Below, piece by piece: positions 22,338 through 41,223 of a stretch of 64,000 bases of DNA (the first letter of the stretch is position 1; each line of letters begins with the position of its first letter). The position numbers were made by a program, and so were the translations under genes. This DNA comes from Roseomonas xinghualingensis (GTDB lineage Bacteria; Pseudomonadota; Alphaproteobacteria; Acetobacterales; Acetobacteraceae), in assembly GCF_025791835.1 (NCBI RefSeq), contig NZ_JAOXLP010000001.1, forward strand, positions 124,001-188,000. The letters are read 5' to 3'. A model generated the notes under the pieces. That model saw only the letters and a program-made list of their open reading frames with translations, was not told the origin of the DNA and did not search any database.

Positions 22338-22576
22338 CCAGGGGCGCTGCCCCTGGAACCTCGCCGGGGAGCCGACGGGCTCCCCGGACCCCGCGAGCTG
22401 TTTTTGGACGGTGCGCCTGAGGTCGATGACCTCAGGCGACTGACAGGTCAGTCCGCACGGCCCAGGTATTTTGCCTGCGGCGCTGCCTGATTTCACTGCT
22501 TGGCTGAAAACTGAACGCGGAGTCCGGGGTGGCCGCTGCCATCCCGGCTGAGGTCCGGAGGCAGAGCCTCCGGGGG
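22338..22576. repeat. Family-A mosaic palindromic repeat, full copy
   Basis: Ordered modules: CCAGGGGC/GCCCCTGG hairpin, GGGGAGCC/GGCTCCCC hairpin, ACCCCGCGAGCTGTTTTTGG, the central 25-bp inverted repeat at 22414-22438 (arms CGCCTGAGGTC and GACCTCAGGCG), GGTATTTTGCCTGCGGCGCT, a TCACTGCTTGGCTGAAAAC segment, GGTCCGGGGTGGCCGCTGCCA-like hairpin, and CCGGAGGCAGAGCCTCCGG. This accounts for most of the 348-bp gap between the hydrolase (22583) and the TctC-type gene; I see no gene in the remainder. Confidence 0.85.
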
Positions 22577-22582
22577 CCACCC

Positions 22583-23434
22583 TCAGAACAGATGCCGCTC
22601 CAGCCGCGCGGTGGTCGCGGCGGGCGCCTCCAGCTTCGCCAGATGCCCGACGCCGTCCTGCACCTCCATCACCGAGCCGGGGATGGCCCCCGCCAGGGCG
22701 CGGCTGACATCGGGCGGGTTCACGCGGTCCTCGCTGCCCACCAGGATCAGGGTCGATGCCGCGATGCGGGGCGCGAAATCCAGCGTGTCCGTCCCGTCGC
22801 TCGCGCGCGCCGAGCGCAGCAGCCCCTTGGCATGGGTGGCGGAGAGGCTATGGCGCACCCATTCGCCCACGCTTTCCGGCGTATCGGGGGCGACGAGGTT
22901 GCGCCAGCGTTCGCGCGCCAGGGCCATGCCGCCGCCCGAGATCGTGTCGCGCCGCATGGCGAGCATCCGGTCCCGCTCCGCCTGCGGCTTCCAGCGTTGC
23001 CCGCGCGAGGAGCCGAGCAGCGCCAGCTTCCCCACCCGGTCCGGGTATTCCGCCGCGATCACCGCCGCGATCATGGAGCCGAAGGAGGAGCCGACGAGAT
23101 GGGCGCGCCCGACGCCCAGCGCATCGAGCAGAGCCACCGCCACCCGCGCATAATCCGTGGCCTGCGGCGCCTCGGCGGCGAAATCGGCGGAGAGCCAGTA
23201 GCCCGGTGCGTTCCAGGCGATCACCCGTGCCCGCTGTGCGAGGCGCGGCAGCACGAAGCGCCAGCCCGTGCTGTTGGAGCCGATGCCATGCATGAGGAGG
23301 ATCGTCTCCGGCCCCTCCCCCGCTTCCATATAGGAGAGCCGCCCATGCTCCAGCCCGAGGGCCGCCGCATCCAGTTCCACGAAGCGTGTCTCGGGCAGCG
23401 GCGGTGCCTCGCTGCCGTCGGGATGGCGGATCAC
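22583..23434 (-). CDS. Alpha/beta hydrolase, C-C bond hydrolase-like
   Basis: 283 residues. Oxyanion motif LLMHGIGSNSTGW, nucleophile Ser in LVGSSFGSMIAA, Asp in LVGSEDRVNPPD, and His in GVGHLAKLEAP: the full MhpC/BphD-like catalytic set. Family members split ring-cleavage products or hydrolyse esters. I chose the GTG at 23434 because it overlaps the upstream dioxygenase stop as GTGA; longer frames run into that gene. The coupling suggests that it works on the dioxygenase product or the next metabolite. The family-A repeat begins 7 bp after the stop. Confidence 0.8.
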   Translation of the reverse strand: MIRHPDGSEAPPLPETRFVELDAAALGLEHGRLSYMEAGEGPETILLMHGIGSNSTGWRFVLPRLAQRARVIAWNAPGYWLSADFAAEAPQATDYARVAVALLDALGVGRAHLVGSSFGSMIAAVIAAEYPDRVGKLALLGSSRGQRWKPQAERDRMLAMRRDTISGGGMALARERWRNLVAPDTPESVGEWVRHSLSATHAKGLLRSARASDGTDTLDFAPRIAASTLILVGSEDRVNPPDVSRALAGAIPGSVMEVQDGVGHLAKLEAPAATTARLERHLF

Positions 23435-23976
23435 AGGCTCACCCAGCCCTCGGGCGGCGTCTTGCCAGGATGCAGCCTGCCGCAATGCGGGCAGGTACGC
23501 TTCTCCTCCGAGGCGTAGAACTCGGCATAGAGGGGCGGCAGATCCTTCACGATGTCCTTCACCACCAGTTCGATCCGGTGGACCTTCCCGTTGCATTCGA
23601 AGCAGTACCATTCGAAGGCGTCCTTCGCCCCTGGCGGGCGGGACCCCTCCACCACCAGCCCCACTGATCCGGCCTGGGGGCGCTGCGGCGAATGCGGTAC
23701 ATGGGCGGGCAGCAGGAAGACCTGACCCTCGCGGATCGGGATGTCTTGGATGCGGCCATCCATATGCACCTTCAGCACCATGTCGCCGCGAAGCTGGTAG
23801 AAGAATTCCTCCACCGGATCGTCGTGGAAATCGACGCGCTGGTTCGGCCCGCCCACGATCTGCACGACCGTATCGGCATCCTCGAAGAGCAGCTTGTTGC
23901 CGACCGGCGGCTTCAGCAGATGCTCGTTCTCGGCGATCCAGGCCTTGAAGTCGAAGGGCTTGCGCATGCTCTTCAT
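23431..23976 (-). CDS. nbaC: 3-hydroxyanthranilate 3,4-dioxygenase-like cupin
   Basis: 181 residues. Cupin with Fe ligands His51, Glu57 and His95 (HDDPVEEFFYQLRG; LPAHVPHSP), and the structural metal site of the bacterial enzymes: Cys125, Cys128 (YCFECNG) and Cys162, Cys165 (TCPHCG). Opens the ring of 3-hydroxyanthranilate to 2-amino-3-carboxymuconate semialdehyde. ATG 23976 overlaps the preceding aldolase-like stop as ATGA, and its own stop overlaps the hydrolase start. No kynureninase, kynurenine monooxygenase or decarboxylase (nbaD/ACMSD) is in the window, so the true substrate may be a related aminophenol acid. Confidence 0.85.
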   Translation of the reverse strand: MKSMRKPFDFKAWIAENEHLLKPPVGNKLLFEDADTVVQIVGGPNQRVDFHDDPVEEFFYQLRGDMVLKVHMDGRIQDIPIREGQVFLLPAHVPHSPQRPQAGSVGLVVEGSRPPGAKDAFEWYCFECNGKVHRIELVVKDIVKDLPPLYAEFYASEEKRTCPHCGRLHPGKTPPEGWVSL

Positions 23977-24956
23977 TCCGCCGCTTGCCGGTTGGCGAGC
24001 TTCAATCCGCAGGAAGCGAAGGCCGCCCGCGTCGCCGCGCGCTCGGCTTCTGTCAGGTTGAGCATTGGCCGCCGTACCGGCCCACTGGCCTGCCCCAGAA
24101 GCTCCATCCAGTATTTCGTATGGGCCGGTGGCTTCCCGCCTGGCTTGGTGGAGCGAATGGCCTGCCGCACCGGCGCCAGGCTGTCGAAGACGCGCCGCGC
24201 CTCCCCGGCCCGCCCGGCGAAGGCGAGGTCCGTGTATTCCCGCATCCGCGTATCCACCGCCGTCTGCAGCAAGGCGGGCGGAGAGGAACAGAGATAGAGG
24301 CGCCATCCCAGTTCCAGGATGTTGTCCAGCCACTCTTCCTCGCTGGCGGTGCTGACCAGCAGCGTGTCGCCCGCGCGGCGGGACAGCTCGGCATACATCT
24401 CGCGCGGCACGGAATACTTGATGGCCACGACGTTCGGGATTTCCGCCAGCCTCAGGCAGAGATCGGGGCTCATCAGATAGCCGCTGTCGGGATGGGACCA
24501 GAGGGCGATGCCCAGCCGCGTCCGCTCGCTGATGTGGCGGTAGTATTCGACCAGCGTCTCGTCGCGATCATGCAGGAAGTGCAGCACCGGGGCATGGACC
24601 ACGATGAAGTCCGCCCCGCATTCCTCCGCATGGGCGGCCAGTTCCAGCACCGTGTCCAGGTTCTGGTCGGAGCAGGACATGATGGTGCGCCTGCCGCAAT
24701 CCCGCGCCACCTCGGCCGCGATGGAGAAGCAGCGCTTCCGCTCCGGCACCGACATGGAGAAGAACTCGCCCTGCTTGCCGGCGACGAAGACGCCATCCAC
24801 CCCCAGCTCGGTGAACCAGTGGCGCAGATTGGCCCGGAACCCGGCCTCGTCGAGGGAAAGGTCCGCCCGGAAAGGGGTGGGCGCGGCGCACCAGATCCCC
24901 TTCAGATGGGCGCGGGCATATTCCTTGGCCTGGGCCCGCTCATGGGTTTCATGCAT
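23973..24956 (-). CDS. Dihydrodipicolinate synthase/N-acetylneuraminate lyase-family protein
   Basis: 327 residues, class-I aldolase (TIM-barrel) family. The Schiff-base lysine is Lys180 (NVVAIKYSVP), followed by the usual spacing. The GTTGE loop of true DapA is here AGKQGEFFS (about 59-67), and the conserved Tyr of YNxP is replaced in ALWSHPDSGY (about 151-160). It is therefore not a lysine-biosynthetic DapA; hydratase-aldolases of aromatic degradation belong to the same family. First gene of a three-gene overlapping set with the dioxygenase and hydrolase. ATG 24956 is chosen as the first Met before the family-like region. Confidence 0.8.
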   Translation of the reverse strand: MHETHERAQAKEYARAHLKGIWCAAPTPFRADLSLDEAGFRANLRHWFTELGVDGVFVAGKQGEFFSMSVPERKRCFSIAAEVARDCGRRTIMSCSDQNLDTVLELAAHAEECGADFIVVHAPVLHFLHDRDETLVEYYRHISERTRLGIALWSHPDSGYLMSPDLCLRLAEIPNVVAIKYSVPREMYAELSRRAGDTLLVSTASEEEWLDNILELGWRLYLCSSPPALLQTAVDTRMREYTDLAFAGRAGEARRVFDSLAPVRQAIRSTKPGGKPPAHTKYWMELLGQASGPVRRPMLNLTEAERAATRAAFASCGLKLANRQAAE

Positions 24957-25113
24957 CGTTCCGTCTCCCGATGCGCGCAGCCTATCGGCAGGGCCGTGAC
25001 CGGGGGAAGCCCATACAGGGTTGCACCCTGCCAAGGTTTGATGCCCGGCCTTCCACAGCCCAGGTGCAATTCCGCTTCCGTAGCGCTTAGATGGACCAGG
25101 TTCGGAGGATGAC

Positions 25114-26766
25114 TTGGACGCATTACGGCTGCTGATTGAACTGGCGGGGGAGGCGGCACTCCTTCTTTTTGGCCTTCACCTGGTCCAGCGCGGGGTGGAG
25201 CGTGCCTTCGGGGCGAATCTGCGCCGCGTCGTGGGTGTGGCCCTCGGCTCTCGCCTGCGCGCCTTCCTGGCCGGGCTCGGCGTCACCGCAGCGCTGCAGA
25301 GCAGCACCGCCGCGGCCCTGATGGTGGGTGGCCTGGCCGCCCAGGGCGCGCTGGGGCTGGAACCGGCGCTGGCGGCCATGCTGGGCGCCAATGTCGGCAC
25401 GGCGCTGATCGTGCAGCTGCTGTCCTTCGATGTCCGTGCCGTCTTCCCGGCCATGCTGCTGCTGGGCTGGGCGGCCTATCGCCGCACCAGCACCCGCCAG
25501 CGGGAGGCCGGGCGCGCCGTGCTGGGCCTCGGCCTCATGCTCGCCGCCCTGCACATGATGCTGGACAGCATGGCGCCGCTACAGGCCTCCCCCGCCTTCC
25601 GCGAGGTGCTGCACCTGCTGGAAGACTCGCCCCTGCTGAACCTGGTGGCGGCCACGCTCCTGGCCTGGGCGATGCATTCCTCGGTGGCCGCCGTGCTGCT
25701 GATCGGCTCCCTGGCCGGCGCGGGGGTGCTTGGCCCGCAGGCGGCGGTGGCGATGGTGGTGGGCGCCAATCTTGGCAGCGCCATCACCCCGGTGCTGGCC
25801 GCGCGCAACGACGAGCGGGACCTGTCCCGCCAGCGCCTGCCCATCGGCAATCTGGTGAACCGGCTGGCCGGCTCCCTCATCGCCCTGGCCCTGCTTGGCC
25901 CCCTCACCGACATCCTGCGCGGGCTGGACGACCATCCGGTGCGGCTGGTGGCCAATGCCCATCTGGCCTTCAACCTGATCCTCGCCTTCGCGACCCTGCC
26001 CTTCCTCGGGCCCTTCGGCCGGCTTCTCACCCGGCTGCTGCCCGCGCCACCGGCTGCCGCCAGCGCCGGGGCGCCGCGCTACCTCGATCCGGGCGCTGTC
26101 TCGATGCCGGCGGTCGCCCTGGCGAATGCGTCGCGCGAGGTACTGCGCATCGCCGATGAGGTGGAGGCCATGCTGCGCGACGCCGCCGCCGCCCTGCGCC
26201 GCGCCGATATCGACCGCGCCAAGGCCACCGCGCGCCGCGACGACGTGGTGGACAACCTGCACCGCGCCGTCCACGCCTATCTCGCCACCCTGCCGCGAGA
26301 GACGCTGAACCAGGCGGAGATCACCCGCCTGGAGGAGATCCGCGACGTCGCCATCGCACTGGAGCATATCGGCGACATGGTGGAGCGCGGCCTCGCCCGC
26401 CATGCCACCCGCGCCGCGCGCCGGGGCACGCTGCTGCCACAGGAACTGGCCGACGAGCTGGCGGCGCTGCATGAGCGGGCGATCGCCCAGCTGCGCCTCG
26501 CCATCGCGGTGTTCATGGGCGGGGATTCCGCCGCCGCCCGGCAACTGGTGATCGAGAAGGAAGCCTGGCGCCTGGCGGAGCGCGCCGCCGCCGCCCGGCT
26601 GGGCCGCAGCCCGGACGACGCCACCGCCGCCACCGCGCGGCTGGCGCTGGACGTGACGCGGGACCTGAAGGCCATCGCCGGGCATCTGGCCGGCATTGCC
26701 CATCCGCTGCTGGAGCGGGAGGGGTTGCTGCGCGTCAGCCGCCTCCGCTCCGTGCCGGCGGCCTGA
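25114..26766 (+). CDS. Na/Pi-cotransporter-family protein with C-terminal PhoU domain
   Basis: 550 residues. The N-terminal ~310 form the NptA/Na-Pi-II fold with the duplicated motif: GVTAALQSSTAAALMVGGLA (about 56-75) and AMHSSVAAVLLIGSLAGAG (about 188-206). The C-terminal ~220 (from about 335) are helical PhoU-like repeats (ANASREVLRIADEVEAMLRDA; ALEHIGDMVERGLARH). A likely inner-membrane phosphate transporter with a regulatory domain. The start is TTG 25114, supported by GGAGG at 25104-25108; no in-frame ATG fits. Alone on its strand between two minus-strand groups. Confidence 0.87.
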   Translation: MDALRLLIELAGEAALLLFGLHLVQRGVERAFGANLRRVVGVALGSRLRAFLAGLGVTAALQSSTAAALMVGGLAAQGALGLEPALAAMLGANVGTALIVQLLSFDVRAVFPAMLLLGWAAYRRTSTRQREAGRAVLGLGLMLAALHMMLDSMAPLQASPAFREVLHLLEDSPLLNLVAATLLAWAMHSSVAAVLLIGSLAGAGVLGPQAAVAMVVGANLGSAITPVLAARNDERDLSRQRLPIGNLVNRLAGSLIALALLGPLTDILRGLDDHPVRLVANAHLAFNLILAFATLPFLGPFGRLLTRLLPAPPAAASAGAPRYLDPGAVSMPAVALANASREVLRIADEVEAMLRDAAAALRRADIDRAKATARRDDVVDNLHRAVHAYLATLPRETLNQAEITRLEEIRDVAIALEHIGDMVERGLARHATRAARRGTLLPQELADELAALHERAIAQLRLAIAVFMGGDSAAARQLVIEKEAWRLAERAAAARLGRSPDDATAATARLALDVTRDLKAIAGHLAGIAHPLLEREGLLRVSRLRSVPAA

Positions 26767-26787
26767 GGATTCTTCTGGACTGACGGA

Positions 26788-26994
26788 CCGGGAGGCGCCG
26801 CCTCCCGGACCCCGCGATCTGTTTTTGGGTGGCGCGCCTGAGGTCCATGACCTCAGGCGACTGACGGATCAGCCCGCATGACCCAGAAATTTTGCTTGCG
26901 GCGCTACCGATCCCACTGTTTCGCTGCAAACTTGGCGTGGGGTCCGGGGTGGCCGTTGCCACCCCGGCGGAGGTCCGGAGGCGGAGCCTCCGGG
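26788..26994. repeat. Family-A mosaic palindromic repeat, full copy
   Basis: Starts with the CCGGGAGGCGCCGCCTCCCGG-type module, then ACCCCGCGATCTGTTTTTGG, the central inverted repeat 26835-26859 (arms CGCCTGAGGTC and GACCTCAGGCG), AAATTTTGCTTGCGGCGCTA, CCCACTGTTTCGCTGCAAAC, GGTGGCCGTTGCCACC and CCGGAGGCGGAGCCTCCGG. Same orientation as the 22.3 kb copy. It fills the gap between the convergent phosphate transporter and methyltransferase. Confidence 0.85.
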
Positions 26995-27001
26995 AACAGC
27001 C

Positions 27002-27799
27002 TCACGCACGCCCCCGCACCGCCCAGGCACGGGCGGTGAGCCGGATGCTTCCATCAGGCTCCATCGGCAGCGAGGCACGCAGCCTTTCGCGCAGCGCGGC
27101 GCGCCCTTCCTCCCCGATCGACACGCAATAGCTGGGCGCGGGTCCCTGGCCGGCCAGGAAGGGTGACCAGAAATCGTCGAAATCGCGGAAGGTGGTCGGC
27201 ACCTCAATGGCCGTTACGGCGACCTCCCGCAGCCCCGCTCCCTCGAACAAGGCGCGCAACGGACCGGGCTGGCAGAGCGGGAAGCGCGGCCACTCGTCCT
27301 TCTCCCGCACGGCGGGGTCCAGCGCGACGGCGGCGTCCCAGAAGCGGCGCATCATCTGCATGCCTTCGGCATAGTCCCAGACATAGGCAGCCACGGTCCC
27401 GCCCGGCCTTGCGGCGCGGAGCATTTCCGCCGCAGCTTTGCTCTGGTCCGGCACGAAGTTCAGCACCAGGCCGCTGACCACAGCATCGAAGCCCGCATCA
27501 GGAACCGGCAGGTCCCGGGCGTCGCCGGGGCGGAACTCGGCGCGGTTGTCCGTCACCTGCTGCCGCGCAAGCGTCAGGAAGCCCGTGGATAGATCGATGC
27601 CGAGTACGGAGGCGGGGGCGCAGCGGCCGAGGATCGCCTGGCTCAAGGCGCCGGTGCCACAACCGACATCCAGCCATCGCCCGCCGGCCGGCAGGCCGAG
27701 TCCATCGAGGAAAATGGGCGCGACCAGGCGGCTCCAGCGGCCCACGTAGCGCTCATAGGCCTCACCGGCCACCCACAGGTCACCCTGGCTGGCTGCCAT
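27002..27799 (-). CDS. Class I SAM-dependent methyltransferase
   Basis: 265 residues. Motif I WLDVGCGTGALSQAIL at about 43-58, acidic loop GIDLSTGFL, motif II GDARDLPVPDAGFDAVVSG, and motif III ARPGGTVAAYVWDYAEGMQMM in two parts. Resembles UbiE/menaquinone-type small-molecule methyltransferases. The GEAYERYVGRWSRLVAPIFL N-terminus is typical of this subgroup; substrate unknown. Convergent with the phosphate transporter and separated from the next minus-strand gene upstream by 94 bp. Confidence 0.85.
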   Translation of the reverse strand: MAASQGDLWVAGEAYERYVGRWSRLVAPIFLDGLGLPAGGRWLDVGCGTGALSQAILGRCAPASVLGIDLSTGFLTLARQQVTDNRAEFRPGDARDLPVPDAGFDAVVSGLVLNFVPDQSKAAAEMLRAARPGGTVAAYVWDYAEGMQMMRRFWDAAVALDPAVREKDEWPRFPLCQPGPLRALFEGAGLREVAVTAIEVPTTFRDFDDFWSPFLAGQGPAPSYCVSIGEEGRAALRERLRASLPMEPDGSIRLTARAWAVRGRA

Positions 27800-27893
27800 C
27801 GCGCGCCTCCCCGGAACTGGTCCCGGTCGGCGGAGTTTGGCGCCTTGCCGAAGCGCCGGTCCAGCACTGCCTGAATGGCCGGGGCAGCTTGGG

Positions 27894-28613
27894 CTACCGC
27901 AGCCGTTCCGTCCTCTCCCTCATGGCGCGCTCGGCGAGCACGCCTTCCAACAGGGCGAAGAAGTGCTTGCCGTCATTGATGAGGTAGCGGTGCGCCGCCT
28001 CCGGGTGATGCTGCAGGTTCAGCGTCATCCCGGGCGAGGCCAGCCAGATCCCCATGAAGCGCCGCAGCGCATCCACATCCATCGGATGCCGCCCGTGCAG
28101 CCAGGCGATGGAGCAGGACCGCTCCCCATGGGCCAGTTCATCCAGGTTCACGCGCATCGGCACGCGCAGGATGTTCGCCCGCAGCTCCGGCCAGCCCAGC
28201 GCCGCCGCCGCGTCCAGGTTCACCTGCGGGTTGCTCACCACCGCATTCGCGTCCCACCGCAGTGCCCAGCGCAGCGCCGCATAGCCGGCCATGGAGGAGC
28301 CGAAGAACACCACATCCGCCGGCGCGTAGCCGGCACAGACCGTGTCCACCACCGTGTCATAGGCAGCGCCCGCATCCTGCTGCAGGTAGTAGCTGTTCAG
28401 CGGATCGCGCAGCGCCAGCACATCGCCCTTCCAGCCGCGCTCCGTCGTCTCCAGCGCCGCGTAGCGCTCGCCGTTCTTATGCGTGGCGATCGTCACCAGC
28501 AGCCGGCGCGGTCCCGAAATCCCCTCCCGCACCAGATGTACATAGGGCACCCCATCCAGCGCGCGTTCATGCCGCGCCAGGATGGCACGGTACGCCTCAC
28601 TTTCCTCCGCCAC
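27894..28613 (-). CDS. Alpha/beta-hydrolase-like protein of unknown function
   Basis: 239 residues, family not firmly recognised. VVFFGSSMAGYAALRWAL (about 100-117) has the GxSxxG nucleophile elbow of alpha/beta hydrolases, and the late His in NDGKHFFALL could be catalytic. RRLLVTIATHKNGERYAALE looks like the first beta strands. The start lies 17 bp inside the upstream XRE regulator gene, so the pair is probably translated together. Function open: lipase/esterase-like or a binding protein of polysaccharide loci. Confidence 0.6.
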   Translation of the reverse strand: MAEESEAYRAILARHERALDGVPYVHLVREGISGPRRLLVTIATHKNGERYAALETTERGWKGDVLALRDPLNSYYLQQDAGAAYDTVVDTVCAGYAPADVVFFGSSMAGYAALRWALRWDANAVVSNPQVNLDAAAALGWPELRANILRVPMRVNLDELAHGERSCSIAWLHGRHPMDVDALRRFMGIWLASPGMTLNLQHHPEAAHRYLINDGKHFFALLEGVLAERAMRERTERLR

Positions 28614-28968
28614 GCGCTCCCCTCTCCAGAACCGCCATCAACTCATTCACCACGCCCGGCGGCAGGCTCCGGATCGAATCCGCCAGGCGGTTCGCAAGCT
28701 CCGTCGCCTCCGGCGGAAGCCCCGAGGTATCGAGCACAACCTTCGGCCGCGAAAGCTGCGCCAGCCGGGTCAGCTCATCCGCATCGTCCCAGATCAGGCC
28801 GAGATACTCGCAGACCTGATGCACCAGCCCCACCGAGGGCGCCCCCCGCCGCCCATGCTCCAGCGCCGAGAGATAGGCGGCGGAAACCTGCATGGCCGCC
28901 GCCATCTCGCGCAGGGTCACCCCGCGCTCCACCCGCCAGCGCCGCAGCCTTGCGCCAAACGGTGTCAC
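28597..28968 (-). CDS. XRE-family transcriptional regulator
   Basis: 123 residues. Helix-turn-helix at about 5-60: FGARLRRWRVERGVTLREMA, then MQVSAAYLSALEHGRRGAPS, with a VHQVCEYLGLIWDDADELTRLA extension. The C-terminal ~50 residues are a helical region that may carry the oligomerisation function. GTG 28968 is the most economical start: it lies 8 bp after the BKACE stop, while longer frames antisense or upstream run into that gene. It probably regulates its own operon (BKACE, regulator, hydrolase-like). Confidence 0.8.
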   Translation of the reverse strand: MTPFGARLRRWRVERGVTLREMAAAMQVSAAYLSALEHGRRGAPSVGLVHQVCEYLGLIWDDADELTRLAQLSRPKVVLDTSGLPPEATELANRLADSIRSLPPGVVNELMAVLERGARGGGK

Positions 28969-28975
28969 GGCATCA

Positions 28976-29809
28976 TCAGGCGGCGGCCGCGAGGCCCAGC
29001 ATCCGCCGCGCCTCCTCCGGCTTCGCCGGCCGCCGGCCATGCCGCGCCGCCTGTTCCACCGCCATCCGCACCAGCTCCGCATTGCCCGAGGCCAGGCGAT
29101 CGCGCGAGACGCGGATATTGTCCTCCAGCCCCGTGCGCAGGCCATGCGCCCCGCGCGCCAGTGCCCATTCCATCACCCGCGCCTGGTTCACGCCGATGCC
29201 GGCCGCCGTCCATGTGGCATCCGGCAGCACGCGGCGCAGCTCGCCCAGCATCAGGTCCAGCAGATGCTCCTCCGCCGGCATGGCGTTCTTCACGCCCATG
29301 ACGAACTGCACATGCGGGCGGGCGTTCATCAGCCCCGCCTCCACCAGCCGCTTCGCGCCATGGATATGCGATAGGTCGAAGATCTCGATCTCCGGCAGCA
29401 CGCCATGCTCCCGCATCCCCTCGGCCAGCTCCTCCACCAGCGCGGCCGGGTTCTCATAGACGATGGTGGGAAAGTTCACCGAGCCTGTGGAGAGCGAGGC
29501 CATGTCCGGCCGCAGCGGCAGGGATGAGCCGCGCGCCGAGGGATCGCGCCCACGCCCGCCCGTGGAGAACTGGATGATCATCCCGGGGCAGTGCCTGCGC
29601 ACCCCCTCCTGTACCTGGGCGAAGAGACCCGGATCGGAGGATGAGGATTCATCCGGGTTCCGCACATGGATGTGCACGAGCGACGCTCCGGCCTCATAGG
29701 CCTCATGGGTGGATTCGATCTGCTCGGCCGGGGTGACGGGCACCGCCGGATTGTCCTTCTTGCGCGGCACCGATCCGGTGATGGCCACGGCGACGACAAC
29801 TGGCTCCAC
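28976..29809 (-). CDS. BKACE/beta-keto acid cleavage enzyme (DUF849)
   Basis: 277 residues. Family members such as Kce condense a beta-keto acid with acetyl-CoA and release acetoacetate and a CoA ester, using zinc. Zinc ligands His46 and His48 (SLVHIHVRNP) and Glu229 (RTGLEDNIR) are in place; GxVNFPTIVYEN (about 109-120) and SHIHGAKRLVEAG complete the pattern. The substrate varies widely (3-keto-5-aminohexanoate, dehydrocarnitine and others) and cannot be told from sequence. GTG 29809 has GGAGAC 5 bp upstream. The XRE regulator follows directly. Confidence 0.9.
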   Translation of the reverse strand: MEPVVVAVAITGSVPRKKDNPAVPVTPAEQIESTHEAYEAGASLVHIHVRNPDESSSSDPGLFAQVQEGVRRHCPGMIIQFSTGGRGRDPSARGSSLPLRPDMASLSTGSVNFPTIVYENPAALVEELAEGMREHGVLPEIEIFDLSHIHGAKRLVEAGLMNARPHVQFVMGVKNAMPAEEHLLDLMLGELRRVLPDATWTAAGIGVNQARVMEWALARGAHGLRTGLEDNIRVSRDRLASGNAELVRMAVEQAARHGRRPAKPEEARRMLGLAAAA

Positions 29810-33147: not shown

Positions 33148-34722
33148 ATGCACCGCCGTTCCCTACTCGCCGCCACCAGCATCCTGGCCGCCCCGGCCCT
33201 TCTCCCGGGCACCAGCCGGGCGCAGGCCTCCCGCGCCTCCACCCTGCGCGTGGTGCCGGAAACCCTGACGACCATCCTGGACCCGCATTTCACCACCAGC
33301 TTCACCACGCGGGATTTCGCCTATCTCGTCTTCGACACGCTGCTGGCGGTGAACGACAAATGGGAGCCGGTGCCCCAGATGGCCGAGCGCTGGGAAACCA
33401 GCCCGGACGGCATGGAATGGCGCTTCATCCTGCGGGACGGCCTGACCTTCCATGACGGCAGCCCGGTGACGGGCGAGGATTGCGCCGCCAGCCTTCGCCG
33501 CTGGGCGCAGCGCGATGCCCTGGGCAGCGTCATGCTCCGCGCCAGCGAGGCGATCGACGCGCCGGATGCGAAGACGGTGCGGATCAAGCTGAAGCAGCCC
33601 TTCGGCCTCGTGCTCCAGGCGCTTTCCAAGCCCGGCGCCATGGTGCCGATGATCATGCCGAAGCGTCTGGCGGAGACCCCGCCGAACCGGCCGGTCACCG
33701 AGCCCATCGGCTCCGGCCCCTACAGGTTCGTCGCCGCCGAGTACCGGCCGGGCGACCGCATCGTGCTGGCGCGGCATGAGGGCTACCGCCCGCGGGCCGA
33801 GGCCTCCGTCTGGGCGAGCGGCGCCAAGCGGCCGAGCTTCGAGCGCGTCGAGCTGATCGCCATGCCGGATGTCTCCGGCCAGGTCAGCGCCCTGACCACC
33901 GGGGAGGTGGACTACCTCGAGCGCCTGCCCGCCGACGTGCTGCCGATCCTGGAGCGCAACCGGCAGGTGAAGGTCCAGGTGGTGTCCTCCTATGGCTACC
34001 AGGGCATCATGCGCTTCAACCACCTGCTGCCGCCCTTCGACGACGTGCGGGTGCGCCGCGCGGTGATGATGGCGGTGGACCAGGCGGATTACCTGCCGGG
34101 CGTCGCCGGCCGCGACGAATACGCGCGCGAATGCCGTTCCATGTATGGCTGCGGCACGCCTTACGAGACCACGGCCGGCATGCCGCTGAAGCCGGACCTG
34201 GAAGGGGCGAAGCGCCTGCTGCGCGAGAGCGGCGTGGATCTTTCCAGGCCCGTGGTGATCATCCATGCCGCCGACGCCCCGGGCATCGCCTCGCTCGGCC
34301 TGGTCTCCCAGGACCTGCTGACGAAGCTCGGCTTCAATGTCGACCTGCAGAGCATGGACCTGAACACCTTCTTCGGCCGCCGCGCCCGGCAGGACGGATG
34401 GAACATGTTCCACTCCACCAACACCGTGCCGGACATGCAGACCCCGTTGCAGAACGCCTATATGGAGGCCTCCGGCGCCCCCGCCGGCTTCGCGGGCTGG
34501 CCGAAGGACGAGGAGGTTCAGGCGGGCCGCGCCGCCTTCGCCGCCGCCGGCAGCGAGGCCGAGCGCAAGGCCATTGCCGAGACGATCCACCGCCGTGTGG
34601 CGGAGCAGGCCTTCTACATGCCGCTCGGGCAGTTCGTGACCGCCTCCGCCTGGCGCGCGGAGCTCACCGATGTCCCGGCCGGCCCGGCCATGTTCCTCTG
34701 GAACATCAGGCGGGGCCGCTGA
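33148..34722 (+). CDS. Peptide/nickel-type (family 5) ABC transporter binding protein
   Basis: 524 residues. A Tat-like or Sec leader (HRRSLLAATSILAAPALL, cleavage near SRAQA) precedes the family-5 fold: LRVVPETLTTILDPHFTTSF in the first strands, WEPVPQMAERWETSPDGMEW at about 72-91, and ATSIL-type helices after. PIGSGPYRFVAAEYRPGDRI carries the family GTGPF-like motif. No permease genes lie next to it; the adenosine-deaminase-family gene overlaps its stop by one base. It either uses the transporter at 41-46 kb or serves as an orphan. Divergent from lutB. Confidence 0.9.
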   Translation: MHRRSLLAATSILAAPALLPGTSRAQASRASTLRVVPETLTTILDPHFTTSFTTRDFAYLVFDTLLAVNDKWEPVPQMAERWETSPDGMEWRFILRDGLTFHDGSPVTGEDCAASLRRWAQRDALGSVMLRASEAIDAPDAKTVRIKLKQPFGLVLQALSKPGAMVPMIMPKRLAETPPNRPVTEPIGSGPYRFVAAEYRPGDRIVLARHEGYRPRAEASVWASGAKRPSFERVELIAMPDVSGQVSALTTGEVDYLERLPADVLPILERNRQVKVQVVSSYGYQGIMRFNHLLPPFDDVRVRRAVMMAVDQADYLPGVAGRDEYARECRSMYGCGTPYETTAGMPLKPDLEGAKRLLRESGVDLSRPVVIIHAADAPGIASLGLVSQDLLTKLGFNVDLQSMDLNTFFGRRARQDGWNMFHSTNTVPDMQTPLQNAYMEASGAPAGFAGWPKDEEVQAGRAAFAAAGSEAERKAIAETIHRRVAEQAFYMPLGQFVTASAWRAELTDVPAGPAMFLWNIRRGR

Positions 34723-35813
34723 TGCTCAATTTCTCCGACTGGCTCGACCTTGTTCCCAAGGTCGAGCTGCATTGCCACATCGCCGGCGCCATGCGCGCCA
34801 CCACCCTCACGGAGATCGCTACCGCCAATGGCGTGCGCCTGCCGCGCCCGGCGGAGACGCTCTACCAGTGGCAGGACTTCTACGGCTTCCTGGAGGTGCT
34901 GCGCCTCGGTGCGCTCGCGGTAAAGCGGCGGGAGGATTTCGAGCGCGTCGCCTATGAGTGCATCGAGGACATGCACCGCCACGGCAACACGCGGCATGTC
35001 GAGATCTTCTTCAACCCGCATTACTACACGCCCAATGGCGCCACCTATCCGCTGATCGTGGAAGGGCTCGCCGCCGGGCTGGAGCGGGCGGAGCGGGATT
35101 TCGGCGTCTCCTCGCTGATGATCGCCTGCATCGACCGCAGCGTCTGCCTGCCCAGCGAATCCCTCCAGATGCTGGATTGGGTGCAGGCCCATCCGCATCC
35201 GCGCGTGGTGGGCATCGGGCTGGACGGCGCCGAGCGGGCCGGGCCGCCGCTGGTCTGGGTGGAAGCCTGGCGCCGCGCCGGCCGCATGGGCCTGCGCCGC
35301 ACCGCCCATGTCTGCGAGGACAACCAGACCCTGTTCGAGGGGCCGCCCGCCCATATCACCCATTGCCGCGACGCGCTGGGCTGCGACCGGCTGGACCATG
35401 GCTACAACATGCTGGCCGACCCCGCGGTCGTGGAGCGCATGGCGCGGGAGGGCACGCCCTTCACCATGGCCTGCTGGTCCTCGATCGTGCCGAACCGCAT
35501 CCCCCGGATCGAGCGCATCCGGCGGATGTACGAGGCCGGGCTGAACATCGTGCTGGGCACCGACGACCCGACCATGTTCAGGACCACCATGGGCCATTCC
35601 TGGCGCCAGGTTTTCAACCAGACCGGCTGGGGCGTGGCCGAGGCGCGCAGGCTCAGCCTCGCGGGCGTGGAGGCGAGCTGGCTGCCGGATGAGCGGAAGG
35701 CCACCCTGCGCGCTGGCTTCGAAGCGGCGCTGGACGCGCTGGAGCCAGCGCTGGACCCGGCGGACCGGAGGCTGGACCTGGCCGTGGAAAGGCCGCGCCC
35801 GGACTGGAACTGA
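34722..35813 (+). CDS. Adenosine deaminase-family amidohydrolase
   Basis: 363 residues, TIM-barrel metallohydrolase. Zinc ligands: HCH in KVELHCHIAGAMR (about 14-26), His in RTAHVCEDN (the HAGE motif reads HVCE, so the catalytic Glu is kept), His in DRLDHGYNML, and Asp in LGTDDPTMF. The PLxxCPxSN signature of classical adenosine deaminases is altered to FTMACWSSIVPN, so the substrate may be another purine or an unrelated aminated ring. It starts at an ATG overlapping the binding-protein stop (TGATG), implying that it processes whatever that protein captures. Convergent with phaR. Confidence 0.8.
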   Translation: MLNFSDWLDLVPKVELHCHIAGAMRATTLTEIATANGVRLPRPAETLYQWQDFYGFLEVLRLGALAVKRREDFERVAYECIEDMHRHGNTRHVEIFFNPHYYTPNGATYPLIVEGLAAGLERAERDFGVSSLMIACIDRSVCLPSESLQMLDWVQAHPHPRVVGIGLDGAERAGPPLVWVEAWRRAGRMGLRRTAHVCEDNQTLFEGPPAHITHCRDALGCDRLDHGYNMLADPAVVERMAREGTPFTMACWSSIVPNRIPRIERIRRMYEAGLNIVLGTDDPTMFRTTMGHSWRQVFNQTGWGVAEARRLSLAGVEASWLPDERKATLRAGFEAALDALEPALDPADRRLDLAVERPRPDWN

Positions 35814-35817
35814 AGCG

Positions 35818-35850
35818 CGGGTCTGGGGGGCAGCCGCCCCCCGGACCTGG
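35818..35850. terminator. Hairpin between the convergent deaminase and phaR genes
   Basis: A 10-bp stem (35821-35830 with 35837-35846; one G-T pair) around a 6-nt loop. No strong T tract follows, but its symmetric position 5-10 bp from both stops suggests a bidirectional terminator, probably a single module of the family-A type. Confidence 0.5.
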
Positions 35851-35857
35851 CTGCTGT

Positions 35858-36487
35858 TCAGGGCTGCTCCGCCTTCGCGTTCCGCCGCAGCATCGCCACT
35901 TCTTCCCTCAGCTCCCCCAGTTCCTGGCGCATCGCCTCCACCTCATCCAGCGGCTGGCTGGGCGCGGCGCCGCCGCCGGCACGCTGCGGGAAGGGTGAGA
36001 ACAGGGTCATCGCCCGTTCCAGCATCGCCAGGTTCTGCTTGCCCATCTCCTCGAAGGGCGCGAAGGCGTTGAACACGCCGCTCGCCGATCCCATCGCCTC
36101 CTGGGCTGCGCGCCGCATGCCATCCTGCTGCCGCGCGAAGGTGCCCATCGTGGCTTCCAGATAGCGCGGGACAACGGATTGCAGGCTGTCCCCGTAAAGG
36201 CCGATCAGCTGCCGCAGGAAGGGAATCGGCAGCAGGTTCTGCCCCTTGGACTCCTCCTCCACGATGATCTGCGTCAGCACGGACCGGGTGATGTCCTCAC
36301 CCGATTTGGCGTCGGAGACGGTGAAGTCCCGCCCCTGCCGCACCATCACCGCCAGATCCTCCAAAGTGACGTAGGAGGAGGTCTCGGTGTTGTAGAGCCG
36401 GCGATTGGCGTACTTCTTCACCACCACAGACGGCCGGGACGGCGTCTCGGACGCTGGGTCCTGCGGCGTGATAGGCTCGATCATCAT
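35858..36487 (-). CDS. phaR: Polyhydroxyalkanoate synthesis repressor PhaR
   Basis: 209 residues. VVVKKYANRRLYNTETSSYV (about 21-40) is the N-terminal PHB/PHA accumulation regulator DNA-binding domain, and FLRQLIGLYGDSLQSVVPRY the following dimerisation/granule-binding region. The C-terminal ~30 residues are a coiled coil (VEAMRQELGELREEVAMLRRN). PhaR senses PHA and represses phasin and PHA genes. Divergent from the phasin-like gene at 36742 with a 254-bp gap in which its operator would be expected; I could not identify one. Confidence 0.92.
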   Translation of the reverse strand: MMIEPITPQDPASETPSRPSVVVKKYANRRLYNTETSSYVTLEDLAVMVRQGRDFTVSDAKSGEDITRSVLTQIIVEEESKGQNLLPIPFLRQLIGLYGDSLQSVVPRYLEATMGTFARQQDGMRRAAQEAMGSASGVFNAFAPFEEMGKQNLAMLERAMTLFSPFPQRAGGGAAPSQPLDEVEAMRQELGELREEVAMLRRNAKAEQP

Positions 36488-36741
36488 CTCTCATCCTCCC
36501 ACGGTCGCTCTTGCACGCGGAGGCGGGTATCGCCTTGATCCCGGACCGGGAAGAGATGCTAGACCCGCCTTGCCGCGCTGCGGAAGCCGCTTCGCATCCC
36601 GGGCGCGGGTTGGCATCCGGCGGGGCGAGCCTGTCCCGCTGCGGTGGCGGAGGCTCATCGCGCGCAACCGCGTGCCGGCGGGCCGCGGCGCTATACCGGC
36701 CGTGCAAGGGCCGTGGGTTCAGGACACCAGCCGGGGAATGC

Positions 36742-37272
36742 ATGAACTCTTCCAGCAGCGCCGCACCGGAAGGCGAGGACGGGCCCGATCTGGCACGCCT
36801 GGCTTCCGACTGGATCACCCTCTGGCAGAGCGAGCTGTCCGCCCTGTCCGCCGACCCGGAGCTTGCCGCCGCCTGGTCCGCGGCCATGGCCGCCTGGGGG
36901 CGCGGATGGGCCGAATCGGCCCGCCCGGGCCCGGTGTCCGCCCTATCCTGGCCCATGGCCTGGCCCGTCCCATCCTGGCCCACTTTGCCTTCACCGGCGC
37001 CGGGCTGGCCCATCTTCCCCGGCTGGCCGCCCATGCCCTGGGCCGCGCCGAACCCACCCAAGCCGGAACCCCCGCGTGAGCCCCCGGCGCGGCCCGCGTC
37101 CCCTGCCGGCCCATCTGATCCTGGCGCTCAGCCGGGCGTGGCTGGCGACGGCCTCGATCCCCTCCGCGCCCGGCTCGACAGCCTGGAGCGCGAGCTGGCC
37201 GGGCTTCGCGCCACGCTCGCCGGAGGCAAGGGCCGAGCACGCCCGGATCCTGAGAAGCCTCGACGGCGCTGA
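36742..37272 (+). CDS. Phasin/PhaE-like PHA-associated protein with Trp-Pro-rich region
   Basis: 176 residues. The N-terminal ~50 (LARLASDWITLWQSELSALSADPELAAAWSAAMAAWGRGWA, given here only as its helical register) is amphipathic. About 68-105 is rich in Trp and Pro, with repeated W-P units separated by 2-4 residues. The C-terminal part ends with a coiled coil ([20 protein letters not shown]). Position between phaR and a PhaC-like gene and the coiled-coil tail recall PhaE/phasin partners. Its last 197 bp overlap the PhaC-like gene in another frame. ATG 36742 follows GGGGAA; the frame is open further upstream but without a better start. Confidence 0.6.
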   Translation: MNSSSSAAPEGEDGPDLARLASDWITLWQSELSALSADPELAAAWSAAMAAWGRGWAESARPGPVSALSWPMAWPVPSWPTLPSPAPGWPIFPGWPPMPWAAPNPPKPEPPREPPARPASPAGPSDPGAQPGVAGDGLDPLRARLDSLERELAGLRATLAGGKGRARPDPEKPRRR

Positions 37273-38323
37273 CCCCGAACGGCTCCGCGCCGCCGTCATC
37301 CGCCAGTTGCTGAGCGAGGATGCCGCCATGCTGCGGGGCATCCTCGCCTATCGCGACCATCCCTGGCACCGGACCCTGCCGGACCCGCCTGCCATCTGGT
37401 CGGAAGGGCCCGCCCGGCTGCTGGATCATGGCGGCCAGGGCCCCGTCGCCCTCTTCGTGCCCTCCCTGGTGAACCGCGCCACGGTGCTGGACCTGATGCC
37501 GGAGCATTCCATGCTCCGCTGGATGGCCGGCCAGGGCATCCGCACCCTGCTGCTGGACTGGGGCGCCCCAGGCCCCGCCGAGCGCGGCTTCACCCTCACC
37601 GACTGGATCGCCGGCCGGCTGGAGCGCGTCATCGCCGCCGCCACCGAGGCCACCGGGGGGGCCGTGACCCTGGTGGGCTATTGCATGGGCGGGCTGCTCA
37701 CCCTGGCCGCCGCGCTCCGCCGTCCGGACCGCGTCCGCGCCCTCGCCCTTCTCGCCACGCCCTGGGATTTCCACGCGGGCGGCCCGGAAGCCAAAGCCCG
37801 CGCCCGTTTCGCCGCCTCCCTCCTTCCCGGCCTGGAGCCGTTGATGGCCGCCACCGGCACCTTGCCCCTGGATCTGCTCCAGCTCCTTTTCGCGGGCATC
37901 GATCCCTTTGGCATCGCCCGGAAGTTCCGCGCCTTCGGCCGGCTGGACCCTGCCTCCCCCCGCGCCGCCCATTTCGTGGCGCTGGAGGATTGGCTGAATG
38001 ACGGCATCCCCCTCCCCGCGCCCGTGGCCCGCGAATGCCTGTCCGGCTGGTATGGCGCCAACACCCCGCAACTTGGCCAGTGGCGGGTGGCCGGCGCCCC
38101 GGTGGAGCCCGCCGCCTGGCGCGGCCCCGCCTTCCTCGCCATTCCGCGCGGGGACCGCATTGTTCCCCCCGAAAGCGCCCGCGCCCTTGCCGGGCAGTTG
38201 CCGGGTGCGGCGGTGCTGGACGTTCCCGCCGGCCATATCGGCATGGCCGCGGGCCTCAGGGCCGAAGCTGCCCTGTGGATTCCGTTGCGGGATTGGATCA
38301 AAACCATAGCCCGCCCCAGCTGA
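37076..38323 (+). CDS. PhaC-like polyhydroxyalkanoate synthase (alpha/beta fold)
   Basis: 415 residues, shorter than class I synthases (~590). The lipase-like box is [12 protein letters not shown] with the nucleophile at Cys203, as in PHA synthases. [17 protein letters not shown] (about 161-177), [10 protein letters not shown] (Asp near 360) and AGHIGM (His near 386) give the rest of the triad. I chose GTG 37076 because the N-terminal pattern [17 protein letters not shown] recalls related Acetobacteraceae proteins. This start makes it overlap the phasin-like gene by 197 bp. If the start is instead an internal ATG at 37328, the N-terminal helix would be lost. Confidence 0.78.
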
Positions 38324-38432
38324 TCATCGGGCCGAAGATTGCTGCACCGCACATGGGCGGGTTGCACCGCGGAGGCACCGCGCGCAGCATCGTCCCAACC
38401 AGAAACCCAAAGGATACCGAGGACCGCCTGCC

Positions 38433-39608
38433 ATGGACGACATCGTCATCGCCTCCGCCGCCCGCACCCCGGTCGGCAGCTTCAACGGGGCCTTCTCCAG
38501 CCTGCCCGCGCATCAGCTCGGCGCCGTCGCCATGAAGGCGGCCCTTGAGCGCGCGGGTGTCTCCGCCTCGGAGGTGGACGAGGTCATCCTGGGCCAGATC
38601 CTGACCGCCGCCGCCGGCCAGAACCCCGCCCGCCAGGCTGCCGTCCTCGCCGGCATCCCGGTGGAGCGCACCGCCTTCGGCATCAACCAGCTCTGCGGCT
38701 CCGGCCTCCGCTCCGTGGCGCTGGCCGCCCAGCAGATCGCCACCGGCGATGCGTCCATCGTCATGGCGGGCGGCCAGGAGAGCATGACCCAGGCGCCCCA
38801 TGCCGCGCAGCTCCGCGCCGGGCAGAAGATGGGCGACCTCGCCATGGTGGACACCATGATCAAGGATGGGCTGTGGGATGCCTTCCACGGCTATCACATG
38901 GGCAGCACGGCCGAGAACGTGGCCCAGAAGTTCCAGATCACCCGCGAGCAGCAGGACGAGTTCGCCGCCAATTCCCAGCGCAAGGCGGGCGAGGCGATGA
39001 AGGCCGGCCGCTTCCGCGACGAGATCGTCCCCGTGACCGTGAAGGGCCGTAAGGGCGACACGGTGGTGGAGAACGACGAGTACCCGAAGCCCGAGACCAC
39101 GCTGGAGATCCTCCAGAAGCTGCGCCCCGCCTTCTCCAAGGAAGGCTCCGTCACCGCCGGCAACGCCTCCGGCATCAATGACGGCGCGGCCGCCATCCTG
39201 GTGATGAAGGGCGCCGAGGCCGCGAAGCGCGGCGTCACGCCCCTGGCGCGCATCGTCTCCTGGGCGACCGCGGGCGTGGACCCCTCCATCATGGGTACCG
39301 GCCCCATCCCCGCCTCCCGTAAGGCGCTGCAGAAGGCGGGCTGGTCCATCGACGACCTCGACCTGATCGAGGCCAACGAGGCCTTCGCCGCCCAGGCCTG
39401 CGCGGTGAACAAGGACCTGGGCTGGGATCCGGCCAAGGTGAACGTGAATGGCGGCGCCATCGCCCTGGGCCATCCGATCGGTGCCTCGGGCGCGCGCGTG
39501 CTGACCACGCTTCTGTTCCAGATGAAGCGCCAGGGCGCGAAGAAGGGCCTCGCCACGCTGTGCATCGGTGGCGGCATGGGCGTCGCCATGTGCGTCGAGG
39601 CGGCCTGA
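38433..39608 (+). CDS. phaA: Acetyl-CoA acetyltransferase (beta-ketothiolase)
   Basis: 391 residues. Condenses two acetyl-CoA to acetoacetyl-CoA, the first step of PHB synthesis. The nucleophile Cys88 lies in [11 protein letters not shown], the active-site His in [12 protein letters not shown] (near 347) and the second Cys in [11 protein letters not shown] (near 377). It follows the PhaC-like gene by 109 bp on the same strand. The reductase phaB, usually next to phaA, lies 7.3 kb away. A strong hairpin terminator follows. Confidence 0.95.
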
Positions 39609-39612
39609 GCCG

Positions 39613-39660
39613 GGGGTAAAGGCCGGGGGAAGCATCCCCCGGCCCCCTTTCGTTTTTTCA
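39613..39660 (+). terminator. Intrinsic terminator of phaA (family B)
   Basis: A perfect 10-bp stem (39621-39630 with 39635-39644) around an AGCA loop is followed by CCCTTTCGTTTTTT. It is the strongest member of the family-B hairpins and shares the loop-flanking sequence with the units at 16.43 and 29.85 kb. Confidence 0.85.
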
Positions 39661-39744
39661 AGTTTGAGGCGCGCGGGGCTGCCAAGCCGCTCTATCTGTT
39701 GATTCCACGATGCCAGGGGCCTAACCCCAGCTTCGGAACTGCAG

Positions 39745-40965
39745 ATGCCTGTTGCCATGCCCGATTATGATCGCATCCTTGCCGGCCATCTTGACGCGCT
39801 TCGCGCGGAAGGCCGCTATCGCCACTTCCTGACCCTGCACCGGCAGGCCGGCGAATTCCCCAAGGCCCTGCGCGCCGATGGCCGCCCGATCACCGTCTGG
39901 TGCAGCAACGACTATCTCGGCATGGGGCAGCACCCGGCGGTGCGGGAGGCCATGATCGCTGCCATCCGCGAGGACGGCGCCGGCGCGGGCGGTACCCGCA
40001 ACATCTCCGGCACCGGCCGCCACCATGTGGCGCTGGAAGCCGAAATGGCCTCGCTGCATGGCAAGGAAGCGGCCCTCGTCTTCAACTCCGGCTTCGCGGC
40101 GAATGAGGCGACGCTTTCCACCCTGGCGAAGCTGATCCCGGGCTGCACCATCCTGTCCGATGCGGACAACCATGCCTCGATGATCGCGGGCATCCGCAAT
40201 GGCGGCGGGCCGAAGCGCATCTTCCGGCATAATGACCTGGGGCATCTCGCGGAACTCCTCGCCGGGCTTCCGCTGGAGGCGCCCAAGATCGTGGCCTTCG
40301 AATCCGTCTATTCGATGGATGGCGACATCGCCCCGATCCGCCAGATCGCCGAACTCGCCCGCGCCCATAACGCCATGACCTATATCGACGAGGTCCATGC
40401 CGTCGGCCTCTACGGCGCCGGCGGCGCGGGCGTGGCCGCGCGGGACGGCGTGGAGATCGACGTGATCGAAGGCACGCTCGGCAAGGCCTATGGCGTCGGC
40501 GGCGGCTATATCGCCGGCAGCCGCATCCTGGTGGATGCCATCCGTTCCCACGCACCGGGCTTCATCTTCTCCACCACCCTCGCCCCGGCCATCGCGGCCG
40601 GCGCCCTGGCCAGCGTGCGCCATCTCCGCGCCTCCGACGCCGAGCGCGCCGCGCATCAGGAGCGTGCCCGCACCACCCGCGCCGCCCTGCGCGCGGCGGG
40701 GCTGCCGGTGATGGAGAACCCCAGCCACATCGTGCCGGTGATGGTGGGGGACGCCGCCCTCTGCCGCGAGGCGAGCGAGTTGCTGGCGGAAGAGCACGCC
40801 ATCTACATCCAGCCGATCAACTTCCCCACCGTGCCGCGCGGCACCGAGCGCCTGCGCATCACGCCGACGCCGCTGCATGACGACGCCGCCATCACCCATC
40901 TGGTGGAGGCCCTCTCTGCGGTGTGGAGCAAGCTGGGGCTGCCCCGGCAGAAGCAGGCGGCTTAG
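39745..40965 (+). CDS. hemA: 5-aminolevulinate synthase
   Basis: 406 residues. Condenses glycine and succinyl-CoA to 5-aminolevulinate, the first step of the C4 haem pathway of alphaproteobacteria. The PLP lysine is Lys247 (GTLGKAYGV); [13 protein letters not shown] (about 52-64), [12 protein letters not shown] (about 85-96) and [11 protein letters not shown] (about 214-224, with the Asp and His that contact PLP) are conserved. The second Met (residue 5) is an alternative start. It lies after the phaA terminator, so it probably has its own promoter. Confidence 0.95.
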
Positions 40966-40973
40966 CCGGGCGG

Positions 40974-41223
40974 CCCCGGAGGCTCTGCCTCCGGACCTCC
41001 GCCGGGGTGGCAGCGGCCACCCCGGACCCCGCGTCAGGTTTCCAGCGAAACAGCGGGATCAGGCAGCGCCGTAGGCAAAACACCTGGGCCACGCGGGCTG
41101 CCATGCCAGTCGCCTGAGGTCATGGACCTCAGGCGCGCTTCAAACAATCAGATCGCGGGGTCCGGGGAGCCCGCTGGCTCCCCGGTGGAGGGGGTCTGGG
41201 GGAGGCAAAGCCTCACCCGGGGG
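40974..41223. repeat. Family-A mosaic palindromic repeat, full copy, inverted orientation
   Basis: Carries all modules in the order opposite to the 22.3 and 26.8 kb copies: CCGGAGGCTCTGCCTCCGG, GGGGTGGCAGCGGCCACCCC, CAGCGAAACAG, GCGCCGTAGGC, central inverted repeat 41111-41135 (arms CGCCTGAGGTC and GACCTCAGGCG), then CCGGGGAGCC/GGCTCCCCGG and GAGGCAAAGCCTC. It lies between hemA and the convergent ABC ATPase gene, and its right end overlaps the last ~80 bp of that gene. Confidence 0.88.

Follow-up and report, generated by a model that had tools for sequence, protein, structure and literature searches.

Why does a large palindromic repeat recur at the 3' ends of genes, and does it act there as RNA or as DNA? 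The question arises from a stretch of 64,000 nucleotides of Roseomonas xinghualingensis (contig NZ_JAOXLP010000001.1, positions 124,001 to 188,000), the whole of which we call the window. An element of ~240 bp, a chain of palindromic modules flanking a 25-bp dyad with ACTG usually next to it, occurs here several times, and the original prediction left its role between terminator, mRNA stabiliser and non-autonomous mobile element. That prediction missed the strongest feature of the element, whose copies have the replication origin as their centre and are few at the terminus. Seen more widely, Roseomonas has a class of composite palindromes that is origin-centred.

The window is the origin/partition region of its chromosome, since it carries gidA-gidB-parA-parB at 58860-63154, and a parS-like site lies at contig position 204196, 16 kb past the window end (188000). 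In the draft of this genome (4.88 Mb), BLAST with one copy as query finds 15 near-full copies besides partial ones; the 523-kb contig to which the window belongs has 10 of the 15, and 3 are inside the window. Three near-complete chromosomes of the genus, labelled G014, G012 and G004, allow 175 copies to be placed. The origin half holds 156 of them and the terminus half 19, with 5 in the terminus-proximal third, and the summed counts for successive tenths of an arm, going away from the origin, run 55, 38, 31, 21, 11, 13, 1, 2, 2, 1. In G014 (5.47 Mb) a wide pattern gives 84 hairpin sites, 82 of which were placed (76 and 6 from two listings, 2 unplaced); the circular mean of these falls 5.2 kb away from parB, an offset of -0.10%, and for 72 of the 82 the parS-like site is at most 0.99 Mb distant. 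Relative to the replication fork 37 are oriented with it and 25 against (no formal test). For G012 and G004 the sets comprise exact-stem sites with NAT loops only. G012 (4.33 Mb) has 44 sites, one of 45 being excluded as located on contig C2, an empty arc of 1.67 Mb and a mean 49 kb from parB (+1.14%); G004 (4.20 Mb) has 49 sites, 2.00 Mb empty and an offset of -0.03%. Copies to the left and right of parB number 38/44 in G014, 28/21 in G004 and 20/24 in G012. Because G004 and G012 are closely related species, their results are not fully independent.

How firmly are these origins placed? Cumulative GC skew over 20 samples of G014 is too noisy to locate the origin, which was found instead by the count of GGGNAGGG, then by parS and parB. 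The GGGNAGGG words of G014:C1 are strand-skewed, with a switch at ~0.8-1.6 Mb and again near 4.5 Mb, as would be expected of an origin-to-terminus polarity motif. In G004 a search for parS with at most one mismatch finds none. The 300 kb around the copy centre, chosen by eye as that centre was computed, were examined for an origin before parB was known; they contain a two-mismatch parS-like site at 736,758, and as a control the same search in 400 kb of G014 samples gives one site, as its own parS would give. The parB gene of G004 later proved to be at 778,131, which puts it 1.3 kb from the computed copy centre. In seven draft genomes the parB contigs carry 55 copies where 10.2 are expected, an enrichment of 2.4- to 13-fold with draft sizes rounded (G005, G007, G008, G009, and G003 with too few matches, are omitted from this count). 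The weakest drafts are R. rosea (G011), with 10 of 107 copies (2.4-fold, p 0.008), and G006, with 3 of 29 (4.5-fold, p 0.028); in the window's genome (G000) the parB contig holds at least 7 sites, 10 of 11 pattern sites being listed. A hairpin copy stands within ~250 bp of the parB 3' end at G002:C66 121797, G006:C7 46050 and G007:C27 20370.

Within the element, pairing is conserved rather than sequence, as originally proposed from a paired change in a single copy, and many further copies with paired stem changes were found. A covariance model was built from the 15 near-full copies of the window's genome, and at most 150 candidates were scored per genome; of 15 genomes in the genus, 12 have relatives, whose variants are specific to their lineages. 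Hairpins of the window's genome have the arm TGAGGTC, those of Pararoseomonas baculiformis mostly TCCGGTC; the sole match of G003 has GGAGGTC, GGAGAGC is the arm in G012, G004 and G007, and both TCGGGTC and TGAGGTC occur in G014 and R. rosea. When 50 of the 51 distinct oriented hairpins from 12 genomes are aligned (one G012 row with a shifted foot was excluded), 97.3% of 550 cells pair, against a shuffled mean of 84.2, and pairing falls to 30-43% once the partner is slid out of register. Two-sided changes occur at 6 of the 11 pairs, a number reached in 23 of 500 shuffles, and in 71 cells, with a covariation score of 0.342; either of the last two values was reached in none of the 500 shuffles, all of which ignore relatedness. 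An ACTG or GACT foot adjoins 154 of 221 unique hairpins, and ACTG is invariant in the 50-row alignment because its rows were selected by that foot. The paired change in the 11.7-kb copy itself is real and comprises two compensated pairs (T-A to C-G, A-T to G-C); the G-T pairs attributed there to former T-A pairs are two in number and derive from former G-C pairs, and the loop has 2 nt, not 3.

Might the origin bias reflect nothing but the DNA on offer? Origin stretches of 200 kb in G012 and 300 kb in G004 contain 11 and 12 exact-stem elements, whereas terminus stretches of 400 and 440 kb (840 kb in total) contain none. Convergent gene pairs per 100 kb are nevertheless similar at origin and terminus (12.5 vs 13.8 in G012, 11.3 vs 12.5 in G004). 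Hairpins with a stem of at least 9 are denser near the origin in the raw count (31.5 vs 12.2 in G012, 25.3 vs 10.9 in G004) and not so after subtraction of an assumed 4 per element (9.5 vs 12.2, 9.3 vs 10.9); over 20 evenly spaced windows of G014 they show no clear trend with distance (rho -0.12, p 0.61; means 4.1 near, 2.5 far). Repetitive extragenic palindromic sequences (REPs) follow core genes, which concentrate near the origin in Pseudomonas, according to PMC3390384, and the repeats might in the same manner mark old, stable core DNA and be missing from recently acquired DNA (a 'REP desert'). G012 is indeed covered by G004 to 0.89-0.99 in six origin windows and to a mean of ~0.65 in six terminus windows; four further origin windows have 0-0.23, possibly because the partner lies outside the compared stretch. 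Those six terminus windows, which fall within the compared G004 stretch, reach 0.71, 0.35, 0.88, 0.93, 1.00 and 0.06 at ~91% identity and yet hold no listed element; two edge windows have 0.53 and 0.38 and the other twelve 0.00, most likely because the counterpart is outside that stretch. Likewise, among six G014 windows more than 2.1 Mb from parB, four are covered 0.48-0.68 by the G004 terminus stretch and two 0.00, with no listed element, and the 400 kb of G012 terminus samples yield 13 tRNA calls. Conserved terminus DNA that lacks elements therefore weakens the 'REP desert', without removing it, and we regard it as very unlikely. In the DNA sampled, site availability, hairpin density and conservation do not account for the origin bias. 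The equal supply of convergent pairs near a terminus devoid of elements also speaks against a role as RNA at convergent genes, whether in terminating transcription in both directions or in stabilising mRNA 3' ends. Convergent sites are certainly enriched: 205 unique copies comprise 98 convergent, 71 tandem, 9 divergent, 6 called inside an open reading frame (ORF) and 21 at a locus edge, where the background gene pairs of the same loci are 120 convergent, 497 tandem and 151 divergent. The paired changes suit an RNA as well, as do strong predicted folds (z -7.1 and -8.2 against shuffles for two copies), which strongly palindromic DNA would show anyway. An RNA hairpin, however, is expected to tolerate G-U and not A-C, and the 1694 cells of the 154 oriented copies divide into 1672 Watson-Crick, 7 G-T, 7 A-C and 8 other (the other 67 of the 221 hairpins have neither an ACTG nor a GACT foot; they were left unoriented and excluded from wobble and pair counts). 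G-T thus equals A-C and gives no RNA signature, though 14 cells are few; the closing stem, with 101 G-T and 114 A-C in 146 copies, is mostly noise because its best 14-bp duplexes barely exceed shuffled ones (10.8 vs 9.8). No terminator-like call (hairpin, then T tract) falls on the three full copies, against 9 elsewhere in window positions 22200-41400, and Rfam has no match in the window at gathering score and none at E<=1 for one copy. An RNA role is on these grounds improbable, and the options of the original prediction are narrowed towards a DNA element.

The main rival is biased mobility, by which the repeat would be a selfish non-autonomous mobile element, akin to REP doublets forming hairpins (REPINs) or miniature inverted-repeat transposable elements (MITEs), moved as a folded single strand, inserted or surviving preferentially near the origin and without a host role. 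The build from composite inverted palindromes favours it, as do lineage-specific variants with mostly one or two common per genome, the common ACTG foot next to a hairpin of drifting sequence, strict Watson-Crick pairing and a second family with the same regional bias. Presence and absence at orthologous sites are in keeping with this part of the original prediction. Some sites of G012 and G004 are common by position; the copy at G012 4116875 is absent from G004, where one solo module remains, G004 carries other sequence at the place of G012 4142371, the copy at G004 761736 is absent from G012, and in two further pairs the central hairpin is missing in one species. Individual copies are thus gained and lost, but the regional pattern persists. 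As to terminal inverted repeats of MITE type, the inner modules form an inverted pair and the outer ends are variable. Against mobility, no target-duplication signal stands out (3.04 vs 2.95 expected, 124 of 500 shuffles as high) for 46 copies with poorly defined ends, and the transposase family Y1_Tnp/RAYT (PF01797) has no match in the window's genome, the sole element genome searched, whereas 5 of 14 control genomes are positive. A dosage gradient alone should not, by our reasoning, clear 1.7-2.0 Mb around the terminus. We consider biased mobility a serious though doubtful possibility. Separately, some synteny breaks between G012 and G004 lie at or beside repeat copies (G012:C1 4108839, 4163724-4164018, 4198462), which suggests repeat-mediated rearrangement near the origin.

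The multi-copy family is found so far in one genus (Roseomonas/Pararoseomonas), which is the genus that the covariance-model search covered. A TNNGGTC-type pattern has no match in 382 genomes of other genera; it has none either in G003, G004, G007 and G012, the last three of which carry GGAGAGC hairpins, so that the result outside the genus is valid for this one pattern only, which fits TNNGGTC-type hairpins alone. A scan of named genomes, with at least 115 stretches listed, includes five single matches in Halolactibacillus, Ciceribacter, Streptomyces, Edaphobacter and Bradyrhizobium, which are taken as chance. In plasmid records no more than fragments turn up, which correspond to 27% and 18% of one copy and come from Pseudoroseomonas cervicalis and Roseomonas mucosa.

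What, then, is the element for? Its concentration on the origin side and scarcity at the terminus suggest a part for the repeats in marking or organising the origin half. The explanation that we place foremost, and in which our confidence is about evenly divided, is a composite extragenic palindromic element, similar to REPINs and to bacterial interspersed mosaic elements (BIMEs), that acts as DNA and is selected for a chromosome-domain function near the origin; it is probably an origin-domain site. The dyad, as duplex or extruded cruciform, would be read by a trans-acting chromosome factor. This may be a nucleoid-occlusion or segregation protein whose sites are depleted at the terminus, like those of Noc and SlmA; it may also be a topology factor, for example gyrase or HU, on the model of E. 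coli BIMEs. New copies would arise by a copying process, selection would retain them where the origin domain needs them, and old ones would decay through internal deletion.

Several observations weigh against such a selected function. A second, seemingly unrelated composite repeat, whose long central stem TGAGCGCTCCGCGAGGAGGGGG differs, occurs in G012 and G004; chosen as a neutral control, it is origin-centred too. In G012 4 of its 9 copies lie no more than 45 kb from parB, in G004 4 of 9 lie no more than 121 kb away, and each chromosome has one far copy. Several single modules, counted in small samples, are likewise near the origin only. Given this second repeat and these modules, the bias may belong to the repeat class and not to one dyad: either several families have a role in the same domain, or composites of this kind are placed or spared near the origin by a single process. 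The parB-contig enrichment of R. rosea is weak, the lone covariance-model match of G003 is ~1.6 Mb from parB, and 9 of the 82 sites of G014 are in the terminus half. Since sites turn over between species that are ~90% identical, no single one is essential. In some genomes two stem variants coexist, both of which one sequence-specific protein would need to tolerate, and the ACTG/GACT foot is not universal. The binding protein and the function of the dyad are putative. A bolder and rather speculative version sees the repeats as self-spreading address labels of the origin domain, read as dyad or cruciform by a putative undiscovered alphaproteobacterial protein. Such labels could be the origin-half counterpart of matS at the terminus, or could serve division timing like Noc/SlmA sites; their sequence would be rewritten between lineages, with pairing and chromosomal distribution kept.

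Chromosome domains defined by repeated or clustered sites are familiar from matS/MatP and parS/ParB. The Roseomonas repeat occupies the domain opposite to that of matS and differs in sequence from parS, which was searched separately. It shares with REPs, BIMEs and REPINs the multi-copy extragenic palindromes in inverted composites, the gaps between convergent or tandem genes and the matched stem-change variants. REP superfamilies carry GTAG/CGTC tags, according to PMC3733652, where Acetobacteraceae are named among the families without CGTC repeats and frequent G-T pairs are used as an argument that REPs act as RNA. The Roseomonas central hairpin has instead ACTG on its 3' side (this refers to the central hairpin only, in rows chosen by ACTG), G-T wobble is not in excess, no PF01797 match exists in the window's genome, and the whole is a ~240-bp, origin-centred composite of four to five hairpins. 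MITEs are similar in being short, non-coding, built of inverted modules and variably present; in the element no target-duplication signal is seen for the 46 copies with poorly defined ends, and a parental insertion sequence, sought only as PF01797, was not found. Noc and SlmA sites, tens of palindromes each, are described in PMC4726725 as under-represented in the terminus, and so are the 175 placed sites here; yet those sites are short (14 bp for the Noc palindrome) and have a known protein, whereas the Roseomonas dyad is within a large repeat and its reader is putative. For E. coli, PMC6379681 reports an excess of gyrase cleavage sites in Ori and a deficit in Ter, and describes BIME-2 repeats as transcription-independent gyrase sites with a proposed role in genome organisation; the Ori/Ter bias refers to all gyrase cleavage sites and not to BIME-2 alone, and gyrase binding in Roseomonas would be an analogy only. 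By analogy, then, the element would work like Noc/SlmA and gyrase sites in its placement, and it resembles a BIME in its build.

Turning to the window itself (Table 1), we read the sequence at all seven positions of the original prediction. The three full and three partial copies and the related modules at 58.76-58.86 kb are there, although the 14.2-kb copy is without central hairpin and the 58.8-kb site consists of related modules only. The modular palindromic build is apparent in the sequence, from BLAST copies and from a repeat finder, which independently pairs most of the seven sites: an inverted pair 22364-22575/40974-41185 (212 nt, 85%), a 105-nt pair 22383/26804 (87%) and a 97-nt pair 14167/40963 (94%). 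An outer hairpin is followed by an inner hairpin with arm ACCCCGCG and a short T-rich linker, then by the central hairpin CGCCTGAGGTC-NNN-GACCTCAGGCG, ACTGAC and a core of ~80 nt, and finally by the arm CGCGGGGT, which comes with another inner hairpin, and by the other outer hairpin. The predicted location at gene 3' ends, mostly convergent, holds: 5 of 7 sites are convergent (11.7, 14.2, 26.9, 41.1 and 58.8 kb) and 2 tandem (22.4 and 46.4 kb), on gene calls from a simple rule for ORFs based on GC at third codon positions (GC3), by which the 22.4-kb copy was called 'divergent' in one count and tandem in another. The ORF 41140-42813 on the minus strand terminates within the inverted full copy, and the repeat at 41.1 kb may supply C-terminal codons of this neighbour gene. 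In G012 and G004 the gaps between convergent genes are wider near the origin, with medians of 183 and 213.5 bp, than near the terminus, where the medians are 74 and 64 bp. At 16535-16561 and 49956-49982 of the window stands a distinct repeated hairpin, CGGGGAGAATTCTTTCTCCCCGG, which resembles the outer module of the G014 elements.

Table 1. Repeat copies, their modules and origin-region genes in the window, with positions of the second repeat in two related chromosomes.
Feature	Position	Strand	Context and evidence
Full copy	22338..22576	+	between tandem genes; read directly, repeat finder, BLAST
Outer left hairpin module CCAGGGGCGCTGCCCCTGG	22338..22356	+	read directly
Inner left hairpin module, then closing arm ACCCCGCG	22363..22387	+	read directly; RNA folding
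Central 25-bp dyad CGCCTGAGGTC-GAT-GACCTCAGGCG, then ACTGAC	22414..22438	+	read directly; family alignment
Inner right hairpin module, closing arm CGCGGAGT ahead	22524..22547	+	read directly; RNA folding
Outer right hairpin module CCGGAGGCAGAGCCTCCGG	22555..22573	+	read directly
Full copy, single left module, central dyad 26835-26859	26788..26994	+	between convergent genes; BLAST
Full copy, inverted, central dyad 41111-41135	40974..41223	-	between convergent genes; BLAST
Partial copy, hairpin 11700-11723 with two compensated and two G-T pairs	11632..11767	+	between convergent genes
Partial copy, right half, without central hairpin	14178..14293	-	between convergent genes; repeat finder, BLAST
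Partial copy, hairpin 46435-46459	46390..46516	-	between tandem genes
Related modules at parB 3' end	58760..58858	.	read directly
parB	58860..59705	-	Pfam ParB_N, HTH_ParB, ParB_C; marks origin region
parA	59702..60553	-	Pfam AAA_31
gidB/rsmG	60540..61145	-	Pfam GidB
gidA/mnmG	61142..63154	-	Pfam GIDA
Second repeat	G012:C1 4104277, 4113045, 4157108, 4163927; G004:C1 657570, 739290, 757035, 786104		

To our knowledge, no nucleoid-occlusion or origin-domain site is known in this group, and in a literature search, with most subscription journals outside its coverage, repeats centred on the origin did not come up for Roseomonas. The common view takes palindromic repeats either for selfish elements or for signals that act locally at 3' ends. 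The present repeat, whose pairing is constrained, closely tracks the origin-terminus axis, its mean position lying within 1.2% of the chromosome from parB in three chromosomes. Repeat families and chromosome domains are thereby linked in a directly testable way, and the repeats could help to find origins in unfinished genomes.

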